DNA from: Bacilli bacterium
GTDB taxonomy: Bacteria; Bacillota_I; Bacilli_A; RFN20; CAG-288
Direction: 5' to 3'
Length of the DNA stretch: 42,399 nucleotides
Assembly (NCBI GenBank): GCA_017470005.1
Contig: JAFUFH010000083.1
Span: forward strand, 1-42,399
Shown: one piece after another, positions 5,871-18,689 of the stretch
Numbering within the stretch: position 1 is the first letter of the stretch
How the letters are laid out: every line of letters starts with the position of its first letter
Notes under the pieces: model-generated
Databases searched by the model: none
Seen by the model: only the letters and a program-made list of their open reading frames with translations
What the model was told of the DNA's origin: nothing
Position numbers and translations under genes: made by a program

Positions 5871-7211
5871 TTAATTTTCCAATTCTTTTAAGAATTGAGG
5901 CAATAAATAAAGTGGCTTTAACTCCAACATTTCGTCATGGGAAATATCGCTTTGAGAAAACAATACTCTTCTTGAAATCCTTGAAGAATACTTTTTTGAA
6001 AACTCATTGATTGATTTATGATTATTTACCTCTGAAGACTTTACCTCAATAGGAATGAGTTTTGATTGATTATCAATGAGAAAATCTATTTCATAGGGGT
6101 GCGTTTGATTCTCATTTTTCCAAGTGTGATAAAGCAATTCCCTGCCATATGAATTTATGATTTGTGCTACTGCATTTTCATATATATAGCCCAAATTGGC
6201 TTCCAGTTTATCACCCAAAAGCTTAAGATAGATGTTTTCATCCACCAATGATTTACTATTAAATATTTGAGTAATAAACAAACCAATATCTGCAAAATAC
6301 AGTTTATAAGTGTCAAAATCTGTTGTTAGATTTAAAGCGATAGAGGGATCTTTCACATTTCTGCATAGTAAGACGGTCTTAGAATCAATTAAATCCGCAA
6401 GGAACTCTTCATCTTTGACTCTTTTTCTGCTATTTGTTGCTTTACTAATAAAGAATCTATTTTTTTGCAAGGCAAGCTGACTCGGAATGGATTCGAAAAT
6501 AGCTGAGATTCTTCCACTTGGATCAATTTTTCTAAAGTCATCTTTATACAAATTGATAATCTCTTTTTTTATCAAATCAATTTCTCGGAACGATTTTTTA
6601 TTTATATACGCTTCAACAGCTTGAGGCATACCACCAACAGCCATATAAGTCCTGAAATCTCTCATCAATATCCTATTCGTAGATGAACCAACAGCTTTCT
6701 TACTAGAATATACCTTTTCGTAAATCGAATAATCTTTATTACATGCCCAATTAAATTCTTCATAATCCATTGGGTATATATCTATTTTAATTTCTTCAGA
6801 TGGTATCAATATGTTCTTAACATTCTTTTTGATGCTGATAAGTGATCCTGTTTCAATATAATCATACCTACCATCTTTAACTAAATGCTTAATTGCCTGG
6901 CGAACCTTTGGAGCCAACTGAATTTCATCAAAAATAATCACAGAATTTCTCTCATATAATTCTGTTGATGTCAATGCTTGGAGTTTTAGAAAGAAAATGG
7001 CTAAATTAGAAATATCATCAAATACCTCGTTTAACTCACTAGAAATATTCGAAAAATCAATCATGATGTAGCTTTTATAATTTTCTTTGGCGAAATTTTC
7101 CGCAATGGTGCTTTTACCAACACGTCTTGCACCTTGCAATAGTACAGCGTATTTTCCGCCATAGTTTTCTTTCCACCATTTCAGTTTATCGGTTGCTTTT
7201 CGTTTAAACAT
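5871..7211 (-). CDS. AAA-family ATPase with DUF4143 nuclease-like C-terminus (copy 1)
   Basis: A 446-aa protein of the COG1373 / AAA_14-DUF4143 family. Walker A is GARRVGKST (residues 27-35) and Walker B is VIIFDE with D95-E96. The C-terminal domain carries EIDFLIDN...IPIEVKSS with D376, E389 and K391, the D...ExK arrangement of PD-(D/E)XK folds. The cellular function of this large family is not established. The start has a near-perfect SD (AAAGAGGTGAT) and a TATAAT box just upstream, so expression should be strong. Its promoter runs into a 33-bp-period repeat array (7240-7359). A second paralog of exactly the same length lies at 17204-18544; both begin MFKRK but share little beyond the family motifs. 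Confidence 0.9.
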   Translation of the reverse strand: MFKRKATDKLKWWKENYGGKYAVLLQGARRVGKSTIAENFAKENYKSYIMIDFSNISSELNEVFDDISNLAIFFLKLQALTSTELYERNSVIIFDEIQLAPKVRQAIKHLVKDGRYDYIETGSLISIKKNVKNILIPSEEIKIDIYPMDYEEFNWACNKDYSIYEKVYSSKKAVGSSTNRILMRDFRTYMAVGGMPQAVEAYINKKSFREIDLIKKEIINLYKDDFRKIDPSGRISAIFESIPSQLALQKNRFFISKATNSRKRVKDEEFLADLIDSKTVLLCRNVKDPSIALNLTTDFDTYKLYFADIGLFITQIFNSKSLVDENIYLKLLGDKLEANLGYIYENAVAQIINSYGRELLYHTWKNENQTHPYEIDFLIDNQSKLIPIEVKSSEVNNHKSINEFSKKYSSRISRRVLFSQSDISHDEMLELKPLYLLPQFLKELEN

Positions 7212-7231
7212 TTCATCACCTCTTTGAGTAT

Positions 7232-7259
7232 ATTATATATGAAAAATGCATTTTTGCAA
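7232..7259 (-). promoter_or_regulatory. Promoter of ATPase copy 1, overlapping repeat unit 1
   Basis: On the minus strand a perfect -10 box TATAAT (7232-7237) lies 16 bp from TTGCAA (7254-7259, 4 of 6 to TTGACA). The -35 element is inside the first unit of the repeat array, so anything binding the array would touch RNA polymerase. Confidence 0.65.
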
Positions 7260-7359
7260 TGCTTCACAACCAAAAAATGTGCATATTTGCAATGCTCCAG
7301 AGACCAAAAATGTGCATATTTGCAATACTCTGACACATAAAAACATGCATATTTGCAAC
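7240..7359. repeat. Four-unit direct repeat, exact 33-bp period, upstream of ATPase copy 1
   Basis: Units begin at 7240 (degenerate), 7273, 7306 and 7339. Each has a 21-bp core followed by a 12-nt variable spacer. Units 2 and 3 are identical over all 21 bp of the core; unit 4 differs at a few positions, and unit 1 is degenerate in its left half. The core contains TGCATATTTGCA, an imperfect dyad. The array lies within 30 nt of the ATPase start and overlaps its -35 box. The rest of the 7212-7501 gap contains only a weak hairpin (TCACTAT at 7477-7483, ATAGTGA at 7487-7493, then TAATCTTTTT). An operator array is the simplest reading. Confidence 0.9.
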
Positions 7360-7501
7360 ATCAATAAGAAATTTTGCTCTAATGAAATACATATATTACC
7401 TAAAAACGTCACTAAAAATGGAGTGCTAAAGTTTTCTCGCTTAGACTTTATTATCCCCTAGAAAATGAAATCTGAGTCACTATAAGATAGTGATAATCTT
7501 T

Positions 7502-10500
7502 TTAATACAAGGAAGAGGTCGTAATCTTCTTTCCGTTATCGCTGACAGCAAGCTTAGATCCTGTTTCGATAAACCAAGTCTTGTTCTTATAAGTTTGCTC
7601 GACCTTAGAAATCTCATAGAAATCGGATTCGGAATAAGTGGAGAAATATTTATTTTCTACCTTATCCATCATATCTTGGAATTCGATAGAAGTAGAGATG
7701 ACAGAAGCATTCAGAGTCAAATCGATGGTGATGATACCGATGATTTCTAAGACCTGACCAGAGATAGCAATGGATTTTAATTCACCTTGGTTTTCACTGT
7801 TATCGGTGTGAGTGATATCCACAGAGACATCATTTCCTAAAGAGATGATAGCAATACCTAAATCGATACTAGATAGATCTACGCCAAGATGGAAGGTCTT
7901 ATTTCCTTCATTATAAGCCATCGTTTTGATGAGTTTTTCTGGATAGATGGCAGTACCCATGATGCCACCTTTGTCTTCTTTCTCTTCACTGGTAGCAGAA
8001 GAATTGATGGCTCCTTCAATTTGAGCGACTGCATAATTCTTAACGGCACCCACTCCCTTTAAAAGACTTTCTTCTTTTTCAAAATTGAGGGCCATGCCTA
8101 AGATATAGTAACCAAAGTGCTTCAGTAATTCGCTAGCTCTGACGTGAAGAATGACATTATTGCTATTGCTATAATGCTTATAAATCAAGCAATCCTCATC
8201 TTGAGGTCTAATAAAGAACTGCGTATAAGTTCCTTCTCCATCGGTAGGAGTAATCTTGATATAAGCGGTGACATCGGCTTTCTTATTCTTATCTCCAGGA
8301 ACGACATGAATCGAAGCTTGTAAATCAGCAGTAACATCGCTGAGGACCGGTAAATCTACTTCAAGATTACCGCTGATATTAAAGTCCGTATTTTCAGTGG
8401 TATTCAAGGTTAAATCTACCATCAAAGGTAAGAAATCAAAGTTGATGTAAGAGAAGCTAGAAGTGAATAAAGTGGAGGGTTTATAGTCGGGATCATAATC
8501 ATTGAGAGTGATACTTCCTGATAAGATCTTTGTACTGGAAAGACTTAAGTTGGAAATATCTGCTCCGGTGATGCCATTGTTTTCATCGTAATTGACGGTG
8601 AGAGTAAAAGCACCATCTCCTTTTAATCCAATCGCGTGATTATAGATAGATAAAGAGATTTGATTGGGAGTAGATAGAAGAATCGATTCCATATAATCAT
8701 CAAAGAATTTGGTGTAATCCTCTACTTTGACATCTCCGGTATTGGCAAGTCTTAAAATCTCTAAAATGGGTTGTAAATACTGATATAAGAGATTGCTCTC
8801 TTGGATATGAAGGAGAGAACTTAAGGCTTCACCGATGGTAGCGGAACCCATCTCTAATCCTAAATAATTGGAAGAATTCTTAGAGCGGTACATCGCATAA
8901 GTCTTGTTGGACATATCCATTCCGTTATAAGAAGGATTGTTGTGAACAAAGTCTAAGATAGGATCATAAGAGTTTCTATCGATATCGATGACAATAGATC
9001 CCATATACATGGAATTGGGATAATCGAATTGGACTTTACCATCAATGTCAATATATTTAGAAGCATTCTCTAAATCCTCAATTCTCATATCCAAATCGAC
9101 TTGATATTGTAAAGAAGAAGAAAGGATATCGAATAAACCGGTGATGAAGATATTTAAATCTTTCACTTCTTTTCCATCAAAAGAAGAAAGATCAAAATCT
9201 CCACCCATATAGCTCATATCCAATGGGGAGACATAATCTTTTAAGTTTAAGGTTAAAGAGATGGTCAAGTTCTTATAAGAGAAACCAGACACATCTAAGG
9301 AGAGGAATTCTCCGCTGGTATCAAAAGCGATAGCGATGGTTCCAAAGTGACTATCTAAAGAGAGAGAAGCGGTGTTTAAGATAGCGACAAATTTGTCATC
9401 ACTGCATAAAACGTTATCGGTAGAAATCAAATTCGTAATCGAATCTAAGTCAATTCCACCAGCGATAGTGAAAAGAGAAGAAAGAGAATCTAAAGCCCCA
9501 GTGAAATCACTGGTGTCAACTGCATCCTTTCCTTTCCATGCTTCCATGCCATCTAAGATAGCATGATAGATTGCGCCTGTCTCATCCGAGGAGACATATT
9601 CTTTTAAGATATGATCTAAAGAGAGATAGTTATTATTCCCGATTCTTCTAATATCGATATAGTGATTATGATTGTTGACAATAGTAGAGACAGAAGCCGC
9701 AAATTCTAAAGAAGTCAAATCTTCTTTGGAAGAGACTTGAGAGAGATCTAGAGTAGCTTCTCCCATAAAGGAGGTGTTGACATCATTATCTTTTTCATAG
9801 ATATCGACACTGAAATCAAAAGATCCTTTCTTGCTATCCAAATAAGGATAAATCTCGGAGACTACAGGAAGGATTCCGTTGTAATTTCCGTAATTCTCTT
9901 TGTCGATAGCGATTCTCTTTTCTGCGGTCAAATCTTCCAAAGTCAAAGTGATATTGATAACATCGTTAGCGATAGGAAGAGATAAGACTTCTATCTTTTC
10001 AATTTGAATCTTTTCTTGATCGACAAAAGAGATCTTCACTTGCATCTCTTTCTCTTCGCTTGTAAGACCAAAAGCCTTGCTCGATAAAGAGATGCCTAAT
10101 TCTGTTCCATCTTCATTAGCATGAATCGCGGTGATAAAATCTCCATAAACAGAATAATCTCCATGTAAGATTTTATAAATGGAAGTATCACTATCAAAGA
10201 AAGAACCGACCTTTTCTAGTGCGGTAGTAGCTTCTATTGTAGATGTCTCTTTTCCTAAAGTGGAGATGAGATCCGAGATATTTGCTTGATCGATGAAGCC
10301 TTTGATTCCTTCATTGACATTGACATAGATTCTCTCATTATCGTAAGTGACAAGAGCAGAACCTTTGACATAATCACTTCTTTCTTCGGAAAGAGAAGCT
10401 TGAACAAAAGGAGTATCTTCACTCAAATCAGCAGAGATATCTAATCCTACTTTCTTATTCCCTTCACGGAAATCTTCCCCGCGGATAGAGACATCGACAG

Positions 10501-11338
10501 CGACATCAAATTTCTTCTCTTTGGCCATATTGACCAAGGTGAGAAGGAAAGGATCTAAACCATCTAAATTGATATCGTTTTGTGTCTCTAAAATCGAGGT
10601 AGCAAGAGAAGAGACATGACTCACCTTAGCATCCCCATCCAAAGAGAGGGAAAGAGGTTCTTTTCCTTCTCTTTCCATCACCAAAGGAGTCGGAGTATTA
10701 ATCGAAGTTAAATCAAAGTGAGAATCACTTTCTAAGACAACATTTCCGTACTTGGTGGTGAAATCAAATTGATAACTATCTTCGATCTTCTTTTCAATGG
10801 CCGTCTCTACGCTGTTTTCGACTTCTCCTAAAATATCGTTGACGGTGGAAAGTAAATCTTCATTCGCCATTGCGCTAGTGGAGAACGTAGGAAGAGAGGA
10901 TAAGATGTAAAAGATATCCCCTAGTGTATCCATATGACAATAATAGATTTTGTTGTCATAATGGACAGAGACTCTCTCTTCATCTACAGACATCAAAAAG
11001 GATCCTTGCACCGTATCATATTGAAGGTCAAAAGCACCAGAGAGACGAGAGATAGGATGATTTCCTTCATAGGCTTCAATATAATTGACGGCAAGATTGC
11101 TTGCGTGAAGGGATAAAGGTTTATCTCCAAGACCATCTAAAGTTAAATAGAAGTGATCAAAACAGATGGAAGCGGAGTCAAAAAGGTTAGCAAAAAGCTC
11201 TTCCTTATCGGAAGTCGATTGTTTTTCATCGATGAAGATATCCCCTTCATATTGCTCTCTTTGCGTAGAGATAGAAGAGCAAGAGGACAAAGAGAGCGAG
11301 AGGAGAAGAAGAGGAAGGAAGAGCTTTTTTGCTTTCAT
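7502..11338 (-). CDS. Giant lipoprotein, paralog of the upstream gene, function unknown
   Basis: A 1278-aa protein with a lipoprotein signal (MKAKKLFLPLLLLSLSLSSC; lipobox LSSC, Cys about residue 20), so it is anchored outside the cytoplasmic membrane. The body has few charged clusters and many alternating hydrophobic beta-strand patterns, with segments such as LSLDVSGFSYKNLTISLTL recurring in variant form every 250-300 residues. This suggests repeated beta-rich domains. It shares domain order and blocks (LDGLDP, KKFD, KEDKGGI, DLSSID) with the 1398-aa product just upstream, which is evidence for tandem duplication. No SD is obvious; it follows the upstream stop by about 12 nt and is probably coupled. 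I do not recognise the family. Confidence 0.85.
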   Translation of the reverse strand: MKAKKLFLPLLLLSLSLSSCSSISTQREQYEGDIFIDEKQSTSDKEELFANLFDSASICFDHFYLTLDGLGDKPLSLHASNLAVNYIEAYEGNHPISRLSGAFDLQYDTVQGSFLMSVDEERVSVHYDNKIYYCHMDTLGDIFYILSSLPTFSTSAMANEDLLSTVNDILGEVENSVETAIEKKIEDSYQFDFTTKYGNVVLESDSHFDLTSINTPTPLVMEREGKEPLSLSLDGDAKVSHVSSLATSILETQNDINLDGLDPFLLTLVNMAKEKKFDVAVDVSIRGEDFREGNKKVGLDISADLSEDTPFVQASLSEERSDYVKGSALVTYDNERIYVNVNEGIKGFIDQANISDLISTLGKETSTIEATTALEKVGSFFDSDTSIYKILHGDYSVYGDFITAIHANEDGTELGISLSSKAFGLTSEEKEMQVKISFVDQEKIQIEKIEVLSLPIANDVINITLTLEDLTAEKRIAIDKENYGNYNGILPVVSEIYPYLDSKKGSFDFSVDIYEKDNDVNTSFMGEATLDLSQVSSKEDLTSLEFAASVSTIVNNHNHYIDIRRIGNNNYLSLDHILKEYVSSDETGAIYHAILDGMEAWKGKDAVDTSDFTGALDSLSSLFTIAGGIDLDSITNLISTDNVLCSDDKFVAILNTASLSLDSHFGTIAIAFDTSGEFLSLDVSGFSYKNLTISLTLNLKDYVSPLDMSYMGGDFDLSSFDGKEVKDLNIFITGLFDILSSSLQYQVDLDMRIEDLENASKYIDIDGKVQFDYPNSMYMGSIVIDIDRNSYDPILDFVHNNPSYNGMDMSNKTYAMYRSKNSSNYLGLEMGSATIGEALSSLLHIQESNLLYQYLQPILEILRLANTGDVKVEDYTKFFDDYMESILLSTPNQISLSIYNHAIGLKGDGAFTLTVNYDENNGITGADISNLSLSSTKILSGSITLNDYDPDYKPSTLFTSSFSYINFDFLPLMVDLTLNTTENTDFNISGNLEVDLPVLSDVTADLQASIHVVPGDKNKKADVTAYIKITPTDGEGTYTQFFIRPQDEDCLIYKHYSNSNNVILHVRASELLKHFGYYILGMALNFEKEESLLKGVGAVKNYAVAQIEGAINSSATSEEKEDKGGIMGTAIYPEKLIKTMAYNEGNKTFHLGVDLSSIDLGIAIISLGNDVSVDITHTDNSENQGELKSIAISGQVLEIIGIITIDLTLNASVISTSIEFQDMMDKVENKYFSTYSESDFYEISKVEQTYKNKTWFIETGSKLAVSDNGKKITTSSLY

Positions 11339-11350
11339 ATTTTTTTATTT

Positions 11351-14300
11351 TTAGTCGTTTTCTTTATTGATGTTCACTTCAGGAACCACAACATCATCGA
11401 TGCTGATTTCGCTAGGATTCTCTAAAGTGTTGTTATCTTCAACAGAGATATAGTAATAAGAACCGTGTCCCATGAATTCTTGATGATAGAGTTGTTCTAC
11501 CTTGTCAATGACATAGTAGTTCTTATTCTCCATTTGAGAGTCATAGTAGGCTTTGTAGGCTTGTTTGGTTTCTAAGAGAGCGAATGGCTCACTCTTTTCC
11601 ATAGCGATATCCACAGAGATAGAAGCAAGAGAAGCGACAGAAACTACTTTACCCGTGATACCAAAGCCAGTGAGAGAGTTTTCATCATGTGTGACATAGG
11701 CTTTCAAGAGATTTCCAAGATGGATACCTTTGACACCCACATCGATGCTAGATAAGTCGAGGGCAAGAGAGAAGATACCCTTCTTTTGTTGCTCATCTAA
11801 ATAGGTGTGACCACTCTCTTTGACATTGATGAGATTCTCAGGAAGAATCGCGCTTCCTAAGATACCACCCTTATCTTCTTTGACTTCTTCACTCTCTTCT
11901 TCGCTAGAGGTAGAACCTAAAGCGGATAAGTCTAAATTATCTAAAGCGGAGACAAGGAGAGTCTTGACAGGGATGATCTTGCTAGAAGCGATATCGGCAG
12001 AGAAGTTAAGACCTTCACCTAATAAGTAATAACCGATGTGCTTGATGAGTTCATCGCTAGTGACATACTTCATGGTAGTCTTCACTTTTGCTAAGTTATG
12101 TTTGACAATCAAGAAGTCTTTATCCACAGAATCATAGAAGAATTCAGTGCTATAGGTTTGATGATAATCGCTCAAGCGGAGATAGACATCGAAAGTTGTC
12201 TTCTCTCCATTCTCGCCAGGATTGACATTCAAACCGAAGTAGATATTGGTGTAGAAGTCATCGATGACAGGGATAGAGACACGCAAGTGACCATCCATGG
12301 TGAAGGTTTGTTTATCGGTGGAATTAAGACCCAATTTGATGAAGAGAGGGAGATCATCCATAGAGATGTATCCCACTTCATTCATCGGGTATTCCACACC
12401 GTGGAATTCCTCTTCATAATCGACAAGAGAAGCTTCTAAGGAGAATTCTTTTCCTAACAATTCTAAGCCAGTGACAGAGAGTCCTTTGATGACACCCTTC
12501 TTTTCTTCTTCGACGACCTCATATCCATAAGCGACAGAGATTTTCACTTCCCCACCGTTTTCGGTGAGTCCTAAAGCATCGGTATTGAGATAGATATCCA
12601 AAGATTGATTGGTGATATCGATCTTGTTGATCAAATCGAGATTGAGAATCTTGAAGTAATCATAATCGCCAGAGATCATGTCAGAGAGAGGGAGAGAAGA
12701 GGTGGCGTTAGAGAGAGAATGGATGAGTCTATAGAGAAGGTTGGTTTCATTGATAGAAGTGACCGTATCGATGGTGGAGGAGATAGTAGAACCATATAAG
12801 GCCACACCGATCTTATTGACTGCAGCATTGACAGGCGTTCCATCGCTATTTTCGTGAGTGTAGAGAGCATAGAGTCTAGGAGCACTCTCTTCTCCTTGGA
12901 CACTCTTATCGTTATAAGCGAATTCGATGACAGGATCATAATTGTTCTCATCGATATCGGCGACAATCTTACCTTGATAGATAGAATTCTTGATATCGAA
13001 TTGAGCTTTACCATCGATAGAGATACCGTATTTGGATTTATCTAAAGCATCGCTCATATTGGCCTTTAAGGAGATCGCGTATTGTTGTTTTTCGCTGGTG
13101 ATGAGATTGAAGATTCCAGAGGCCATATAGTGGAAGTCTGTAACTTCGGTTCCTTCAAATTCGCTCTTATATTCTTCTGCGCTCTTGCTTTGACCAAAGT
13201 AAGGAATCTCATAATAGCTGTGATAAGAAGTCTTGTCATAGTTAAGATTCATGGAGAAGACATAATCTTTATATTCGACACCAGTGATAGAGACGCTTAA
13301 GAACTTCTCTTCGCTAGAATCCAAAGCCAATTCAATGGTACCAAAGCCTAAATCGATGATGGAGGTGTTGACCTTTAAGATGAGAGTATCTTCATCGCTT
13401 GAGGGAGAGACAGAGAAGAACTTTTCTAAGTTTTCAATGTTAAGTCCGTCAGAGACAGAGAAGATGGTGGAGATCTTATTTAAGACGGTATTTAAGGCAG
13501 TAGATTCACTACTCTCATCGCTTTGTGCGCCCTTATCATTCATCTGAGCCACACCCGTCATGACGGCGTTGATGATAGAACCTAATTCTTCATCTTTCAT
13601 GCTCTCTTTTAAGACATCGTCATAAGCGACATAGGTAGTGCCATCGATCTTTCTAGCATCGATATAGTGGTCAACATTCTCTACCTTAGTATGTGCGGTG
13701 AAAACGGCATCTAAGGGTAAGTTATTCTCTTCTAAGGAAATATCTTTGATAGAGGATAAATCCGCAGCGATAGTGCCATCTAAGGAGTGAGAATAAGCAA
13801 GCTTGTTGTTTCCGATGGTGATGTCATAGGAGAGAGCAAATTTCTTCTCGTTGACAATCTTCATCAGGGATCCGATAAATCCTAAAGCACCATTGTAAGT
13901 GTAAGAATAATTGTCTTGGTTGATCTCTTTGAAGGAGTGACCATCATTATTTTGTAAGCCGATTTCGACAGAGAACTTGTTGTTACCAAAGAGGATATTG
14001 CTCACTTTTGCTTTGTAGAATTGAAGAGGAGTTTCAGGAGAATAGAAGAGTTCGACTTTGATGCAATCTTCTTTGCTCTCTTCTTGTCCTTCTTCTAACT
14101 TGTTGAGTCCTAAAGCGACATTAGAGATATATAAAGTGACATGGCTTCCATCGGTGTTGGTCTCTAATCCTTTTAAGAATTGATCATAGACGCTGTAATC
14201 GCCTTGTAACATCTTAGAAAGAGCGCTGTCTCCTAAGAACTTAGCAGCGACTTCGGCGACATTGATGGCATCGCTTGCGCCAGATTCACTTCCTAAGATA

Positions 14301-15547
14301 TCCATCAAATCGCTGACAGAAGTGTAATCAAGATATCCTTTCTCATGTCCGTTGACATCGATATAGGTTCTATTTCCGGTGAAGGTAGCCATGACATTTC
14401 CTTTGACATAGCTATCATTTCCATTTTCGTTGATGGCAGCTTGAACCACCATGGAATCACCTTTATTCTTCAAATCATCGAAGTCGGCGCTGAGACGGAT
14501 AGAAGCGTTCTTTTCTTCTTCCTCTCCTCTTTGAATTCCTAAGTTGACATAACCGTCAAATTTCTTGGTCTTAGCGATATCAAAGATGGTGATAAGAAGA
14601 GGATCTAAGCCATCTAAGTTTGCGGCAGTAGAGGCATCAAAGTCTTGTAAGGTATTCGTGACAAGATTGTTATTTAAGTCTTGTTCACCTGTAGCGTTGA
14701 GCAAGATTTTTAATGTCATATCATCACTGACTTTGATGGATAATTCTGCTTCCACCCCTTTGAAAGTTAATTCTGGAGTCGCATAGAGAGTGATATCTCC
14801 ATAGGTAGTAGCAAAGGTGTAAGAATAACCATCATCTAACACTTTCTCTTCGGCGTTGGTGATGGCATTTTCCATCTCTCCTAAGATATCCGAGACGGTA
14901 TCTTTGGTGGATTTCTTATTGGGATTTTCTGTCTCTTCTTTGCTAGAGAAGGTGTTCATCAATGCACCTAAATCAAAATTATTGGTGATGACAGCAACCA
15001 TATCTCCTAAAGTATCCATATCTAAGAAATAATAGCCGTCTCTATATTTGACAATCGCTCTTTCATTAGAAGCATAAATCGTAGCATTTTCAGCAACGAT
15101 AGGAGCGCTAGCGGAGATATGAGCACTTCCTTGCTCTAAATCTCCGTAACGAACGGAGATATTTCCGGCAAATTTAGAAGAGAGATCCACATTTCCCTCA
15201 ACAAGAGTGGAATCCAAATAATTGATGGCAAGGTAATCGGAATAGATTCCGATACCTTTGCCTTCTTGGAAGCCGGAGATCTCCGCATTCAAAGAATTCA
15301 ATTTCAAAGAAGCGGAGCCTAAGATATTTCCTAAGAATCTCTCTTGTTTGCTTTCCACATAAGGATCTTCTTGTGTGGGTGTAGCTCCTTCATCGTGATT
15401 GAGGGCAAAAGAGACACTATAACTCGTTCCTGTAGAGATAGAAAGAGATAATAATGCAAGTGTCGCAATAGTGGTAATAGATGTCTTAACACCACCAGTA
15501 GCTCCCACCTTTGCTGCGGTAGTGAATAAATTTCTTTTCATTTTCAT
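11351..15547 (-). CDS. Giant secreted protein, paralog of the downstream lipoprotein
   Basis: A 1398-aa protein with a long N-terminal hydrophobic segment (about residues 22-48, ITTIATLALLSLSISTGT) that looks like an export signal or anchor but has no lipobox. The body repeats the same beta-strand-rich modules as the 1278-aa lipoprotein: LDGLDPLLITIFDIAKTKKFDG, HYIDARKIDGTTYVAYDD and KEDKGGILGSAILPENLI have direct counterparts there. The start has a clear SD (AAGGGGGA) that lies inside the end of the upstream gene, and its ATG overlaps that gene's stop as ATGA. It is cell-surface or secreted; its role is unknown. The two proteins may form one extracellular assembly. Confidence 0.85.
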   Translation of the reverse strand: MKMKRNLFTTAAKVGATGGVKTSITTIATLALLSLSISTGTSYSVSFALNHDEGATPTQEDPYVESKQERFLGNILGSASLKLNSLNAEISGFQEGKGIGIYSDYLAINYLDSTLVEGNVDLSSKFAGNISVRYGDLEQGSAHISASAPIVAENATIYASNERAIVKYRDGYYFLDMDTLGDMVAVITNNFDLGALMNTFSSKEETENPNKKSTKDTVSDILGEMENAITNAEEKVLDDGYSYTFATTYGDITLYATPELTFKGVEAELSIKVSDDMTLKILLNATGEQDLNNNLVTNTLQDFDASTAANLDGLDPLLITIFDIAKTKKFDGYVNLGIQRGEEEEKNASIRLSADFDDLKNKGDSMVVQAAINENGNDSYVKGNVMATFTGNRTYIDVNGHEKGYLDYTSVSDLMDILGSESGASDAINVAEVAAKFLGDSALSKMLQGDYSVYDQFLKGLETNTDGSHVTLYISNVALGLNKLEEGQEESKEDCIKVELFYSPETPLQFYKAKVSNILFGNNKFSVEIGLQNNDGHSFKEINQDNYSYTYNGALGFIGSLMKIVNEKKFALSYDITIGNNKLAYSHSLDGTIAADLSSIKDISLEENNLPLDAVFTAHTKVENVDHYIDARKIDGTTYVAYDDVLKESMKDEELGSIINAVMTGVAQMNDKGAQSDESSESTALNTVLNKISTIFSVSDGLNIENLEKFFSVSPSSDEDTLILKVNTSIIDLGFGTIELALDSSEEKFLSVSITGVEYKDYVFSMNLNYDKTSYHSYYEIPYFGQSKSAEEYKSEFEGTEVTDFHYMASGIFNLITSEKQQYAISLKANMSDALDKSKYGISIDGKAQFDIKNSIYQGKIVADIDENNYDPVIEFAYNDKSVQGEESAPRLYALYTHENSDGTPVNAAVNKIGVALYGSTISSTIDTVTSINETNLLYRLIHSLSNATSSLPLSDMISGDYDYFKILNLDLINKIDITNQSLDIYLNTDALGLTENGGEVKISVAYGYEVVEEEKKGVIKGLSVTGLELLGKEFSLEASLVDYEEEFHGVEYPMNEVGYISMDDLPLFIKLGLNSTDKQTFTMDGHLRVSIPVIDDFYTNIYFGLNVNPGENGEKTTFDVYLRLSDYHQTYSTEFFYDSVDKDFLIVKHNLAKVKTTMKYVTSDELIKHIGYYLLGEGLNFSADIASSKIIPVKTLLVSALDNLDLSALGSTSSEEESEEVKEDKGGILGSAILPENLINVKESGHTYLDEQQKKGIFSLALDLSSIDVGVKGIHLGNLLKAYVTHDENSLTGFGITGKVVSVASLASISVDIAMEKSEPFALLETKQAYKAYYDSQMENKNYYVIDKVEQLYHQEFMGHGSYYYISVEDNNTLENPSEISIDDVVVPEVNINKEND

Positions 15548-16668
15548 AAGTTACATTTCCCCCTTAGGTATGTTGCCATCTTCGTCTCGTCTAAACTGTG
15601 CCTTTCTCCAAACTCTTCATTGGGTTTTGGAGGTTTGACTTCTCTTCCTTGTTCATCTAGGAAAGGAGTAGAGGAAGTGAAGTAATAGGTGTAATCATCT
15701 CCCGTACACTGCGCTTTCACGCCCATGGTTTTGGCGATGTATTTGGAGATAGAACGAACATAATTCAGTTCTAGATTCTCGCTCATATGGTATTCAAAGT
15801 CCGCACTTTGGAAGGCGGGTAGAGCAGAGAGTGAACCTGTCATTTGCATCTGAGCAGCCATCTCTCTGAATCCTGCGACATTCTCGCTAGACATGTGAAC
15901 CTGTATGAGATATCCATCCCCTTCTTTCTGGATGGATGCTTCTTCCATAGTGGATGCATCGAAGTTGAATCCCGTAAATCCCATCTCTTGAATGGAATAG
16001 TCTTTTTCGTTGACATCATAGGAAGCAAATTTTCGGTTCGATCCATCTTTTTCGGTGTGAAGCTTGTAGAAAGGAGAACAGAGTTTTCCTCTCAGCTGAA
16101 TCATTTCATCATAAGTTTTAGAATCATCTTCTTTGCCTTCCCAATCTTTCGGATATTGCCCGTTATAATTGTGAATGCTTCCATCTTTGTAATCGTAATA
16201 TCGATCTGAAGTGTGAACCATAGAAGAGTTAGAGATGTTCTGAGAGAAGTACATATCTGGTCCAAAATAGAGAAGAGCTTCTACATCTTGTTTGACATTG
16301 ACACCCGCTTTGACATTGACTACTTGCTGAGTGTAAGCGTAAGTGTAAGGTGACTGATACAGTTTGTAATAAGAGGTGTTAATGGCAAGAGCGGCTCTTG
16401 CTTTGACATCTCTTGTCTTCAAATTGACATCATTCATATCTTCAATCTCTGAACAAGAGAGATAATCGTATCCTTTGAAGTAGAGAGAATAATCATTTTC
16501 TTTCCCAGAGATACCAAACAAAGAATACAAGAAATATCCTGCTCCTGCTCCTATTCCCAAAGAGAGAACAATGACAAGAGACAGAGAGACAATCTGTTTT
16601 GGTGTTTTCCGATAAGTATTGATACGTTCCGCTTTTCTAGGACCGTGTTGTATTACATTTTCAGCCAT
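15544..16668 (-). CDS. Membrane-anchored extracellular protein, first gene of the giant-protein operon
   Basis: A 374-aa protein with one transmembrane segment near the N-terminus (KQIVSLSLVIVLSLGIGAGAGYFLYSLFG) after a basic cytoplasmic stretch, and a large outside domain with no motif I recognise. The frame is open to a GTG at 16722, but a promoter-like pair (16702-16729) would start transcription inside that extension, so the ATG at 16668 is chosen. The stop overlaps the next gene by 4 nt, which implies translational coupling. It could anchor or chaperone the two giant proteins encoded after it; that is inference from the operon only. Confidence 0.8.
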   Translation of the reverse strand: MAENVIQHGPRKAERINTYRKTPKQIVSLSLVIVLSLGIGAGAGYFLYSLFGISGKENDYSLYFKGYDYLSCSEIEDMNDVNLKTRDVKARAALAINTSYYKLYQSPYTYAYTQQVVNVKAGVNVKQDVEALLYFGPDMYFSQNISNSSMVHTSDRYYDYKDGSIHNYNGQYPKDWEGKEDDSKTYDEMIQLRGKLCSPFYKLHTEKDGSNRKFASYDVNEKDYSIQEMGFTGFNFDASTMEEASIQKEGDGYLIQVHMSSENVAGFREMAAQMQMTGSLSALPAFQSADFEYHMSENLELNYVRSISKYIAKTMGVKAQCTGDDYTYYFTSSTPFLDEQGREVKPPKPNEEFGERHSLDETKMATYLRGKCNL

Positions 16669-16701
16669 GTTTTGGTAATTTTGTCCGTTATACTTTGTAA
16701 A

Positions 16702-16729
16702 AGTATAAAGATAAAAATACACATGTAAA
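16702..16729 (-). promoter_or_regulatory. Candidate promoter of the giant-protein operon
   Basis: On the minus strand TTTACA (16724-16729) and TATACT (16702-16707) are 16 bp apart. The predicted start near 16695 leaves a short leader before the ATG at 16668. Confidence 0.45.
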
Positions 16730-16756
16730 ATATTATTTGTTCAAACAGTTATTCCT

Positions 16757-16850
16757 AAAAACTATTTGAAAAACAACAATAGTTTTGTAAGACAAACGAT
16801 TCTTTTTTGTTTAATATCATATTGTTTGAATTTAAAACTATTTGGAAAAA
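16757..16850. repeat. Three AAAACTATT-type boxes upstream of the giant-protein operon
   Basis: AAAACTATTTG occurs at 16758-16768 and 16834-16844, and an inverted copy CAATAGTTTT lies at 16777-16786. The first and inverted copies form a small dyad. They sit 30-120 bp upstream of the candidate promoter and could be sites for a regulator. The region is very AT-rich, so chance recurrence is possible. Confidence 0.35.
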
Positions 16851-17203
16851 AACAAACAAAAAAGACGAAATGTAAAAACGGAAAAGTCTCGATAAATGCT
16901 CAAACATAAGGATTTTCATCCCATTCGATGGATTTACTTTCTTTATGCTACGTTCTTTTTTTTCTCACTCTTTATATTGTGATTGTAAATAAATCCTATT
17001 TCTTGATTCTTTTGTCTTTTCCCAAAAGAAAAGTGACTACAAATCTCGGTCACTAGAAAAGCATTTGATTCTTTAAAATCATGCCAAAATCAAAGCCATT
17101 TTTAATGACTTCACCAAAGGTGTATTATTGTAACAATAGCCTTTCTTATGGAATCTCAATTTTTATACTTTGCTCTTTAAAACCACATTAGCTAACAATC
17201 CAA
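16851..17203. other. AT-rich intergenic stretch without a recognisable gene
   Basis: About 350 nt between the giant-protein promoter region and the end of ATPase copy 2. I see no open frame of useful length, no tRNA-like fold and no convincing terminator. A short CACC-TTT-GGTG hairpin is near 17113-17123 but has no T run. Confidence 0.5.
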
Positions 17204-18544
17204 CTAATTTAATAAATAAGCCATATATAATGGTATCGTGACAGTTTTATCTTTAACAGATATATTACCATCAATTAGTTTAATAGCCTTATGTACATCA
17301 TATTTATCACTAGTTAATACTTTTTCCAAAGATCTTGCGTTACCATTTCTAGATTTAACCTCTATTAAAGTTATTTCATCATTAAATTTAGATACAAAAT
17401 CTATTTCTAATCCTACAGATTCACTGTAATAATATAAGTTTTTCCCTAATTTTGAAAAAGCATCAGCAATGATATTTTCAAATATGGCTCCCTTATAGAT
17501 TTTTAAATTCCCATTTAAAATATGATTTGTTGTCCCTTTTTCTAGCATGGCGACAAATAAACCGGTATCGGCAAAATAAATCTTAAATTCATCCTCTTTT
17601 TTATAGGCATCTAATGGTAACTCAAGATGAGAAAGATTATGGCATATATTGATTAAGCCAAATTCTTTTAACCACATTATCGAATCATAATACTCTCTTG
17701 CTCTAGCATTTTTATCAATTTCACTATACTTAAATTTCTTGTTTTCTTTCGCTAATTGATTTGGAATAGAATTATATACTTCCATAATCCTTGTTAATTC
17801 TATTCTATTAATTGTCTCTTCTTCATTCTCATCTAAATGTTTTCCAAAATCATCTTTATATTGTTCTAATATAGTTCTTTGTAAATCATAGACTTGATTT
17901 AAATCATTTGTTTGTAAGAATAAATCCACTACATCTGGCATTCCACCCACACATAAATACTCTTTAAAATAGTTCATAAAAAAGATATTTAAAGAATCAC
18001 TGACTTTTTCTTTGTTTAAAAAGCAGTTTTTTACATATTCCAATAAATCTTCACTGATACCTTTTGCTAACAAATATTCCTCAAAATCCATGGGATACAT
18101 TGTTATGGTATATTCAAAACCTGTTGGTACTCCCTTGGATTTCTTTTTATTGTATCCCCTTAATCCTATCAAAGAACCTGTGGCGATAATATCATATCTT
18201 CCATCAATCATAAATGGCTTAATTGCAGATCTTGCATTGGAGCATTCTTGAAGTTCATCAAAAATAATAACCGTTTCATTCGGAACAAATTTAGAATTCG
18301 GAAGTGCAGCCGATAAGTCCCTTACGATATCATTCACTACCAAATCATGATCGAATATTTTTTTTAAGGATGTATTCTCCATGAAATTGATATAAACAAC
18401 ATTTTTATATTTTTCTTTACAATATTGCTTAACAATCGTAGTTTTTCCAACCTGTCTTAAACCTTTGATGACTAAAGCTCGCTTTTTTATTTTAAGCGAA
18501 TCCTCCCATCTTAATATTTCATTCATTATCTTTCTTTTAAACAT
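17204..18544 (-). CDS. AAA-family ATPase with DUF4143 nuclease-like C-terminus (copy 2)
   Basis: A 446-aa COG1373-type protein, the same length as copy 1. Walker A is GLRQVGKTT (residues 28-36) and Walker B is VIIFDE with D96-E97. The C-terminal EIDFVSKF...ITLIEVKSR gives D382, E395 and K397, again a PD-(D/E)XK-like arrangement. Both motifs are intact, so it should be active, but the family's biological role is not settled. A GGAGAT SD lies 10-15 nt before the ATG. Its promoter is embedded in a second 33-bp-period array (18568-18689) of a different sequence. Divergence from copy 1 argues against a recent duplication. Confidence 0.9.
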   Translation of the reverse strand: MFKRKIMNEILRWEDSLKIKKRALVIKGLRQVGKTTIVKQYCKEKYKNVVYINFMENTSLKKIFDHDLVVNDIVRDLSAALPNSKFVPNETVIIFDELQECSNARSAIKPFMIDGRYDIIATGSLIGLRGYNKKKSKGVPTGFEYTITMYPMDFEEYLLAKGISEDLLEYVKNCFLNKEKVSDSLNIFFMNYFKEYLCVGGMPDVVDLFLQTNDLNQVYDLQRTILEQYKDDFGKHLDENEEETINRIELTRIMEVYNSIPNQLAKENKKFKYSEIDKNARAREYYDSIMWLKEFGLINICHNLSHLELPLDAYKKEDEFKIYFADTGLFVAMLEKGTTNHILNGNLKIYKGAIFENIIADAFSKLGKNLYYYSESVGLEIDFVSKFNDEITLIEVKSRNGNARSLEKVLTSDKYDVHKAIKLIDGNISVKDKTVTIPLYMAYLLN

Positions 18545-18564
18545 AAGATACTATCTCCAATCAT

Positions 18565-18593
18565 ATCTTACACGAAATTCAACCCTTTATCAA
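18565..18593 (-). promoter_or_regulatory. Promoter of ATPase copy 2, inside repeat unit 1
   Basis: On the minus strand TTGATA (18588-18593) and TAAGAT (18565-18570) are separated by exactly 17 bp. The spacer and part of the -10 box are made of repeat unit 1. Confidence 0.6.
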
Positions 18594-18689
18594 TAGAGTT
18601 TTACACGAAAATCAATCCTTTTTTCTCTACTTTTTACACGAAAATCAATCCTTTTTAGAACCTCTTTTACACATTTTTGTAAAAAAGGC
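18568..18689. repeat. Four-unit direct repeat, exact 33-bp period, upstream of ATPase copy 2
   Basis: Units begin at 18568, 18601, 18634 and 18667. Units 2 and 3 share TTACACGAAAATCAATCC plus a following T run without mismatch. Unit 1 has a few substitutions. Unit 4 keeps only TTACAC and then diverges into a hairpin (TTTTACA at 18665-18671, TGTAAAA at 18678-18684). The core is about 22-23 bp with a 10-bp variable remainder. The sequence is unrelated to the array at 7240-7359 but the pitch, unit number and place relative to the ATPase are the same. The remaining gap to 18960 holds a terminator (18780-18829) and nothing else I can name. Confidence 0.9.

Follow-up and report, generated by a model that had tools for sequence, protein, structure and literature searches.

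Predicted ATPase-nuclease genes of the DUF4143 family carry private, fixed-pitch repeat arrays over their promoters

Why should two solitary ATPase genes of one genome each stand behind a row of direct repeats that have the same pitch and unrelated sequences? The question is raised by contig JAFUFH010000083.1 of the Bacilli bacterium assembly GCA_017470005.1, which was analyzed at its full length of 42,399 nucleotides (the window) and belongs to a genome of 1.93 Mb. The window contains two genes on the minus strand whose products match the Pfam domains AAA_14 and DUF4143, ATPase-nuclease 1 (5871..7211) and ATPase-nuclease 2 (17204..18544), and directly upstream of each gene an array of repeats adjoins the ATG. 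Our results make it likely that such a protein, a solitary AAA+ ATPase joined to a PD-(D/E)XK domain, binds the private array at its own promoter and probably represses itself, with array and gene traveling together.

Array 1 (7240..7361, minus strand, reading GCATTGCAAATATGCACATTTTT) has four units that begin at positions 7240, 7273, 7306, and 7339, and array 2 (18568..18689, minus strand, reading GGATTGATTTTCGTGTAA) has four that begin at 18568, 18601, 18634, and 18667. A sequence-only reading of the window had reported both arrays at an exact 33-bp step, unrelated in sequence and lying over the promoters of 446-amino-acid DUF4143 ATPases, and all of this was confirmed when the sequence was re-read. 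Tandem Repeats Finder gave a period of 33 for array 1 (7247 to 7358, score 127) and for array 2 (18568 to 18672, score 100), the two highest scores of the whole window, and the lag-33 score of either gene was reached by none of 100 dinucleotide shuffles. Of the central units, which the same reading had described as identical over the core, those of array 2 agree across 18 bp and those of array 1 have 1 difference in 23. That both proteins measure 446 amino acids is a coincidence.

The arrangement recurs across the family. The source genome has 28 DUF4143 matches, and within the 300 bp upstream of each copy nearly every gene of clade A or B has its own row of direct repeats before the start codon, with a unit sequence that differs from gene to gene. 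Clades were assigned by Walker motif, clade A being of the GARQVGKT type, to which both window genes belong (ATPase-nuclease 1 in the GARRVGKS subgroup and ATPase-nuclease 2 in the GLRQVGKT subgroup), and clade B being of the GPKxxGK type. In a first survey of the source genome and 18 relatives, a significant array was present at 24 of 40 clade A genes, 23 of them at a lag of 32 or 33, and at 15 of 16 clade B genes, mostly at a lag of 23. A profile search for clade A yielded 80 loci from many phyla and 31 viral contigs, with significant arrays at 73/79 genome loci and 24/30 viral loci, nearly all at 32 to 34 bp. In a matched test of regions of up to 300 bp upstream, an array was present at 96 of 107 clade A loci from several phyla, 94 of them at 32 to 34 bp, and seven control regions taken from these loci (farther upstream, within the gene, and downstream) gave 0 to 7 arrays in about 100, at scattered lags. 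An additional set of 58 clade A genes contained 45 arrays, every one at 32 or 33. Members on plasmids of Fusobacterium, Vibrio, and Collinsella have arrays at 32 to 33 bp, and a Glaesserella plasmid member has a lag of 33 that falls slightly under the threshold; none was seen at a Ruminococcus albus plasmid member.

In clade B, arrays were found at 22 of 22 genes in a first sample, which included relatives that read TGA as tryptophan, and at 95 of 97 in a larger one, where the lag was 23 in 83 cases and 46 in 8 (23 bp or its double in 91/97). Among five loci that read TGA as tryptophan (L242 to L246), all with clade B ATPases, the usual 23-bp array is present in at least three. With 33 bp for clade A and 23 bp for clade B, the pitch is tied to the protein clade. 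The sequence-only reading had taken the recurrence of the pitch for a functional rule; this holds across clade A, most of whose members do show the periodicity, and not across the whole family. In clades C and D, direct arrays were mostly absent from the source genome and the 18 relatives, and nearly half of the genes had significant inverted repeats, which are probably another operator geometry. Such promoter inverted repeats are frequent at clade C/D genes of genome G000 and its relatives (for example, L026, L027, L056, L073, L085, L092, and L102), and some of these promoters have direct copies spaced by 20 bp (TTAAGGGGG...CCCCCTTAA) or paired TGTAGAATTCTACA palindromes. A single pitch for the entire family is ruled out by the 23-bp arrays of clade B and the inverted repeats of clades C and D.

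The position of the arrays was analyzed in 55 clade A genes with a unit that fits the common core, A-A-T-A-T-T-C-G-C-T-T-G-A-A-A-A-A-G. Arrays in clade A genes with this core have 2 to 5 units, usually 2 or 3, so that the number of four seen in both window arrays is not a rule. The last core unit starts at a median of 54 bp ahead of the start codon. Of 23 genes of the Bacillota, 12 have a TATAAT-like hexamer that begins at core position 32 or 33; with a spacer of 16 to 17 bp, the TTGAAA within the core is then the -35 element. In the Bacteroidota, the lineage-specific element TAnnTTTG begins at position 20 or 21 in 13 of 23 genes, compared with 0 of 23 Bacillota genes. One placement on two types of promoter makes the array look like an operator.

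The arrays are also private. Throughout the genome, with up to 3 mismatches allowed, units of array 1 occur at their own promoter only; full copies of array 2 likewise occur only at theirs, together with two imperfect single matches, against one in a reversed control. A shared regulon is ruled out by this confinement. Paralogs within one genome shared a unit in 0 of 62 pairs. Selection for extra divergence among paralogs of a genome was not seen, since these are as unlike as any pair of equal identity.

If each protein reads its own array, the two should change together, and they do. Among 118 clade A genes, unit similarity climbs with protein identity (Spearman 0.40), from a median of 6.0 at 20 to 25% identity to 19.4 at 70 to 90%, and the spacers of approximately 15 bp show no relation to one another even when the cores match. 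After removal of overall identity, co-variation peaks at residues 373 to 383 and 402 to 415, the loops flanking the PD-(D/E)XK motif. When every variable residue was scanned against every position of the unit, residue 402 and unit base 5 ranked first (Z 16; 13 after average product correction): asparagine or glutamine at residue 402 goes with C or G at base 5, and lysine, histidine, methionine, or arginine goes with T. This rule holds in 54 of 56 genes, and the next-best column reaches 88% even with a free choice of split. On a maximum-likelihood tree the class of residue 402 switches at least 8 times, and base 5 switches along with it in 6 of 6 independent pairs (sign test, P = 0.03). In held-out genes, which are related to the training set and in which the unit was placed blind to base 5, the rule was correct in 16 of 16. 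The codon of residue 402 in ATPase-nuclease 2, the position that predicts base 5 across the consensus subgroup of clade A, lies at 17339..17341 (minus strand). The sequence-only reading had proposed that each ATPase, or a partner, may read an array cognate to it, and had named, as one possibility, a nucleoprotein platform for a PD-(D/E)XK-like domain. Arrays across the family and co-variation down to a single residue-base pair, held-out genes included, support recognition of the cognate array by each ATPase, and the strongest specificity signal falls in that domain.

The predicted structure agrees with a two-part protein. The full-length AlphaFold model of ATPase-nuclease 2 (predicted local distance difference test [pLDDT] score, 93) has as its best Foldseek match the archaeal ATPase PAB2304 (2qen; E value, 2.2e-8), followed by archaeal Orc1/Cdc6 on origin DNA (2qby) and subunits of the origin recognition complex (ORC), with E values of about 1e-5 and low template modeling (TM) scores of 0.2 to 0.34. 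Orc1/Cdc6 initiators combine their AAA+ core with a winged helix at the C terminus that binds DNA. The C-terminal domain (residues 308 to 446; 17204..17623, minus strand), assigned from the AlphaFold model and the motif E380-x-D382 ... E395-x-K397, was also modeled separately (pLDDT, 89) and matches PD-(D/E)XK nucleases, including the DdmD nuclease, Can2, and McrC, at modest E values of about 1e-3 to 1e-2. A sequence search of the PDB returned nothing except the P-loop stretch of midasin. The Walker A motif of ATPase-nuclease 2, GLRQVGKT, lies at 18440..18463 (minus strand). Its residues G33 and K34 are invariant in the 163 clade A proteins; Walker A and B are conserved in 163/163 and the nuclease triad in 160/163, and the triad is nearly invariant in clade B as well. 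The Walker and PD-(D/E)XK residues of ATPase-nuclease 1 are likewise intact. Conservation of both sets of residues suggests that both putative activities are under selection.

Array and gene also move together. Related clade A genes of different species were compared at the DNA level in 20 informative pairs, and in 16 of them the homology has its upstream limit within the array region, at a distance of 58 to 138 bp from the start codon, and never extends more than 15 bp beyond the stop codon (in 3 of the 16, the downstream DNA is too short for this to be judged). The remaining four pairs look syntenic, with homology well beyond the array upstream and, in three, beyond the stop codon. ATPase-nuclease 2 and its 85% identical relative L333 have common DNA from 136 bp upstream (about 18680) to the stop codon, that is, the array and the open reading frame (ORF). 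The conserved mobile unit is a single ORF without an antitoxin or control protein. Copy numbers of DUF4143 genes range from 1 to 28 across species of one genus (G000 to G010), which suggests frequent gain and loss. In sister species, the orthologous flanking gene has no neighboring relative of the window ATPases; a precise empty site was sought in sister species and not found, the genomes being too diverged and synteny lost. Clade A members also occur on plasmids and viral contigs. Common DNA that runs from array to stop codon, patchy copies, and sister sites without the gene indicate that array and gene are inherited and exchanged together as a unit of about 1.5 kb.

On four separate viral contigs (L211 to L214) a near-identical clade A ATPase with its array was seen, a virus-borne copy. 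The genes around both window ATPases resemble metabolic, lipoprotein, and EAL-domain genes. Between the two cassettes (7502 to 15547) lie two very long adjacent ORFs of 1278 and 1398 amino acids, secreted or lipoprotein-like and apparently related to one another.

From these patterns we infer a mechanism in which each ATPase-nuclease would bind the direct repeats that form a private row of sites across its promoter. Subunits would bind head to tail, and the pitch (clade A, about 33 bp; clade B, 23 bp) would be set by the architecture of the protein; if neighboring bound subunits touch, the spacing would reflect protein size and geometry. The nuclease-fold domain, with residue 402 beside the ExK strand, may help to read the approximately 18-bp core of each unit. 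With the -35 (or -33) element lying under the last unit, a bound protein should close the promoter and keep its own level low. Movement of array and gene as one unit would allow many copies to coexist in one genome without cross-regulation.

Several observations weigh against this account. No significant array was found at 11 of the 107 clade A loci. The pairing of residue 402 with base 5 was itself derived from a scan, and the rule extends no further than arrays with the common core, which 58 of 87 tested clade A members have. Both the window's array 2 and the array of L333 are off consensus and would break the rule if forced, so that it does not apply to array 2. A specificity region or residue was searched for in clade B and was not located. 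Lastly, overlap with the promoter would fit activation equally well as repression.

Other explanations of the arrays have to be set against the same data. Although the host DNA is AT-rich, chance or slippage of intergenic DNA has next to no probability as their source. The pitch is 32 to 34 bp in 94/96 clade A arrays and 23 bp or double in 91/95 clade B arrays of unrelated sequence, cores persist where the approximately 15 bp between them diverge, and this origin is ruled out by the dinucleotide shuffles, which fail to reach the score, and by the near-background rates of the seven control regions. It might instead be that a different host factor recognizes the arrays, or that they function as RNA, with only an indirect link to the ATPase, since binding by the ATPase is itself deduced. 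We regard this as very improbable: the unit differs among all copies of one genome, too many sequences for any one host factor to recognize, and base 5 of the unit follows a residue of the adjacent protein. Most units, moreover, lie upstream of the predicted -10 element and would go untranscribed, which makes a role as RNA unlikely. An initiator-like element, in which an Orc1/Cdc6-like ATPase would use the array as iterons of a relic or conditional origin, is improbable as well. In archaea each orc gene stands beside its own origin repeats, and the direct repeats that adjoin the gene of an AAA+ protein, the Foldseek matches to ORC subunits and to Orc1/Cdc6 in complex with origin DNA, and the members on plasmids and viral contigs all recall this situation; however, 28 copies in one 1.9-Mb genome make an origin role of the repeats unlikely, the array lies over the promoter in a constant register, the TM scores of the ORC matches are low, and Orc1/Cdc6 has no nuclease domain, whereas the window family has a PD-(D/E)XK fold and motif.

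It is possible, if rather doubtful, that the array serves chiefly to hold an anti-phage nuclease at rest, that infection (through competing DNA, array loss, or ATP state) releases the cutter, and that self-repression is a side effect, a model that overlaps the one we favor. PADLOC assigns both window proteins to PDC-S01 (residues 1 to 440, E value of 4.1e-90 for ATPase-nuclease 1; residues 1 to 445, E value of 3.3e-135 for ATPase-nuclease 2), single gene 01 of the phage defense candidates in PADLOC-DB. This unvalidated candidate is reported to join an ATPase to a PD-(D/E)XK domain and to rank fourth in frequency among prokaryotic defense candidates, with about 39,500 copies in the survey; for most such candidates validation is reported as pending (PMC12988326). 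A nuclease triad kept in 160/163 proteins would be odd for a mere repressor, and defense nucleases (DdmD, Can2, and McrC) among the neighbors of the C-terminal fold, as well as the patchy copy number within one genus (1 to 28), point in the same direction. Yet the homologous unit is one gene only, the defense label rests on genomic embedding described in a preprint, and this analysis turned up neither an effector target nor a trigger, nor any link to phages. An array that also restrains the nuclease in a defense role would be compatible with self-binding and self-limitation.

Self-binding at a private promoter array thus remains the reading we prefer. More tentatively, and with a little less than an even chance of being right, we suggest that these genes make up a new class of mobile genes, each encoding by itself a self-addressed ATPase-nuclease. 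In such a protein a domain of restriction-enzyme fold would read a private fixed-pitch array through a protein-DNA code, private addresses would permit dozens of copies, and the array-bound state would restrain an active nuclease. If this is true, one of the most abundant uncharacterized prokaryotic gene families would have a common working principle. The clade-fixed pitch and one readable residue-base pair of the code would provide a predicted binding site for every PDC-S01 member, and the family would be a rich natural source of regulator-operator pairs that seem to be insulated from one another.

Full-text searches, with most subscription journals outside their coverage, found no published description of promoter arrays in the DUF4143/PDC-S01 family. 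The window proteins match the PDC-S01 model over their full length and have its ATPase and PD-(D/E)XK domains, but the descriptions found mention no array, private site, or DNA code, and defense is an unvalidated candidate role. PAB2304 and the archaeal ATPase_2/DUF234 family supply the best structural match, and AAA_14 also matches Methanocaldococcus jannaschii members; in contrast to the window genes, three M. jannaschii plasmid members (ATPase_2, not DUF4143) showed no 33- or 23-bp array. Archaeal Orc1/Cdc6 with ORB (origin recognition box) repeats is similar in being an AAA+ protein whose gene lies beside its own direct repeats, and its paralogs, like the window genes, have private repeat sequences. 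It differs from the window family, which has the array over the promoter, a C-terminal nuclease fold, and tens of chromosomal copies, and the TM score is 0.34. The Rep genes of iteron-controlled plasmids likewise have fixed-pitch direct repeats upstream of the gene of the presumed binder, and self-repression, which is predicted here, would be common to both; typical iterons have a pitch of about 20 to 22 bp, and the window family has neither a Rep fold nor a demonstrated replicon. Autoregulated toxin-antitoxin and restriction-modification control loci share with it a compact mobile unit, an operator at its own promoter, and likely nuclease activity. The family does not fit a toxin-antitoxin module, because the common DNA of relatives is the array and one ORF, not two genes; whereas those loci rely on an antitoxin or control protein, the window family consists of one gene that travels with its own array.

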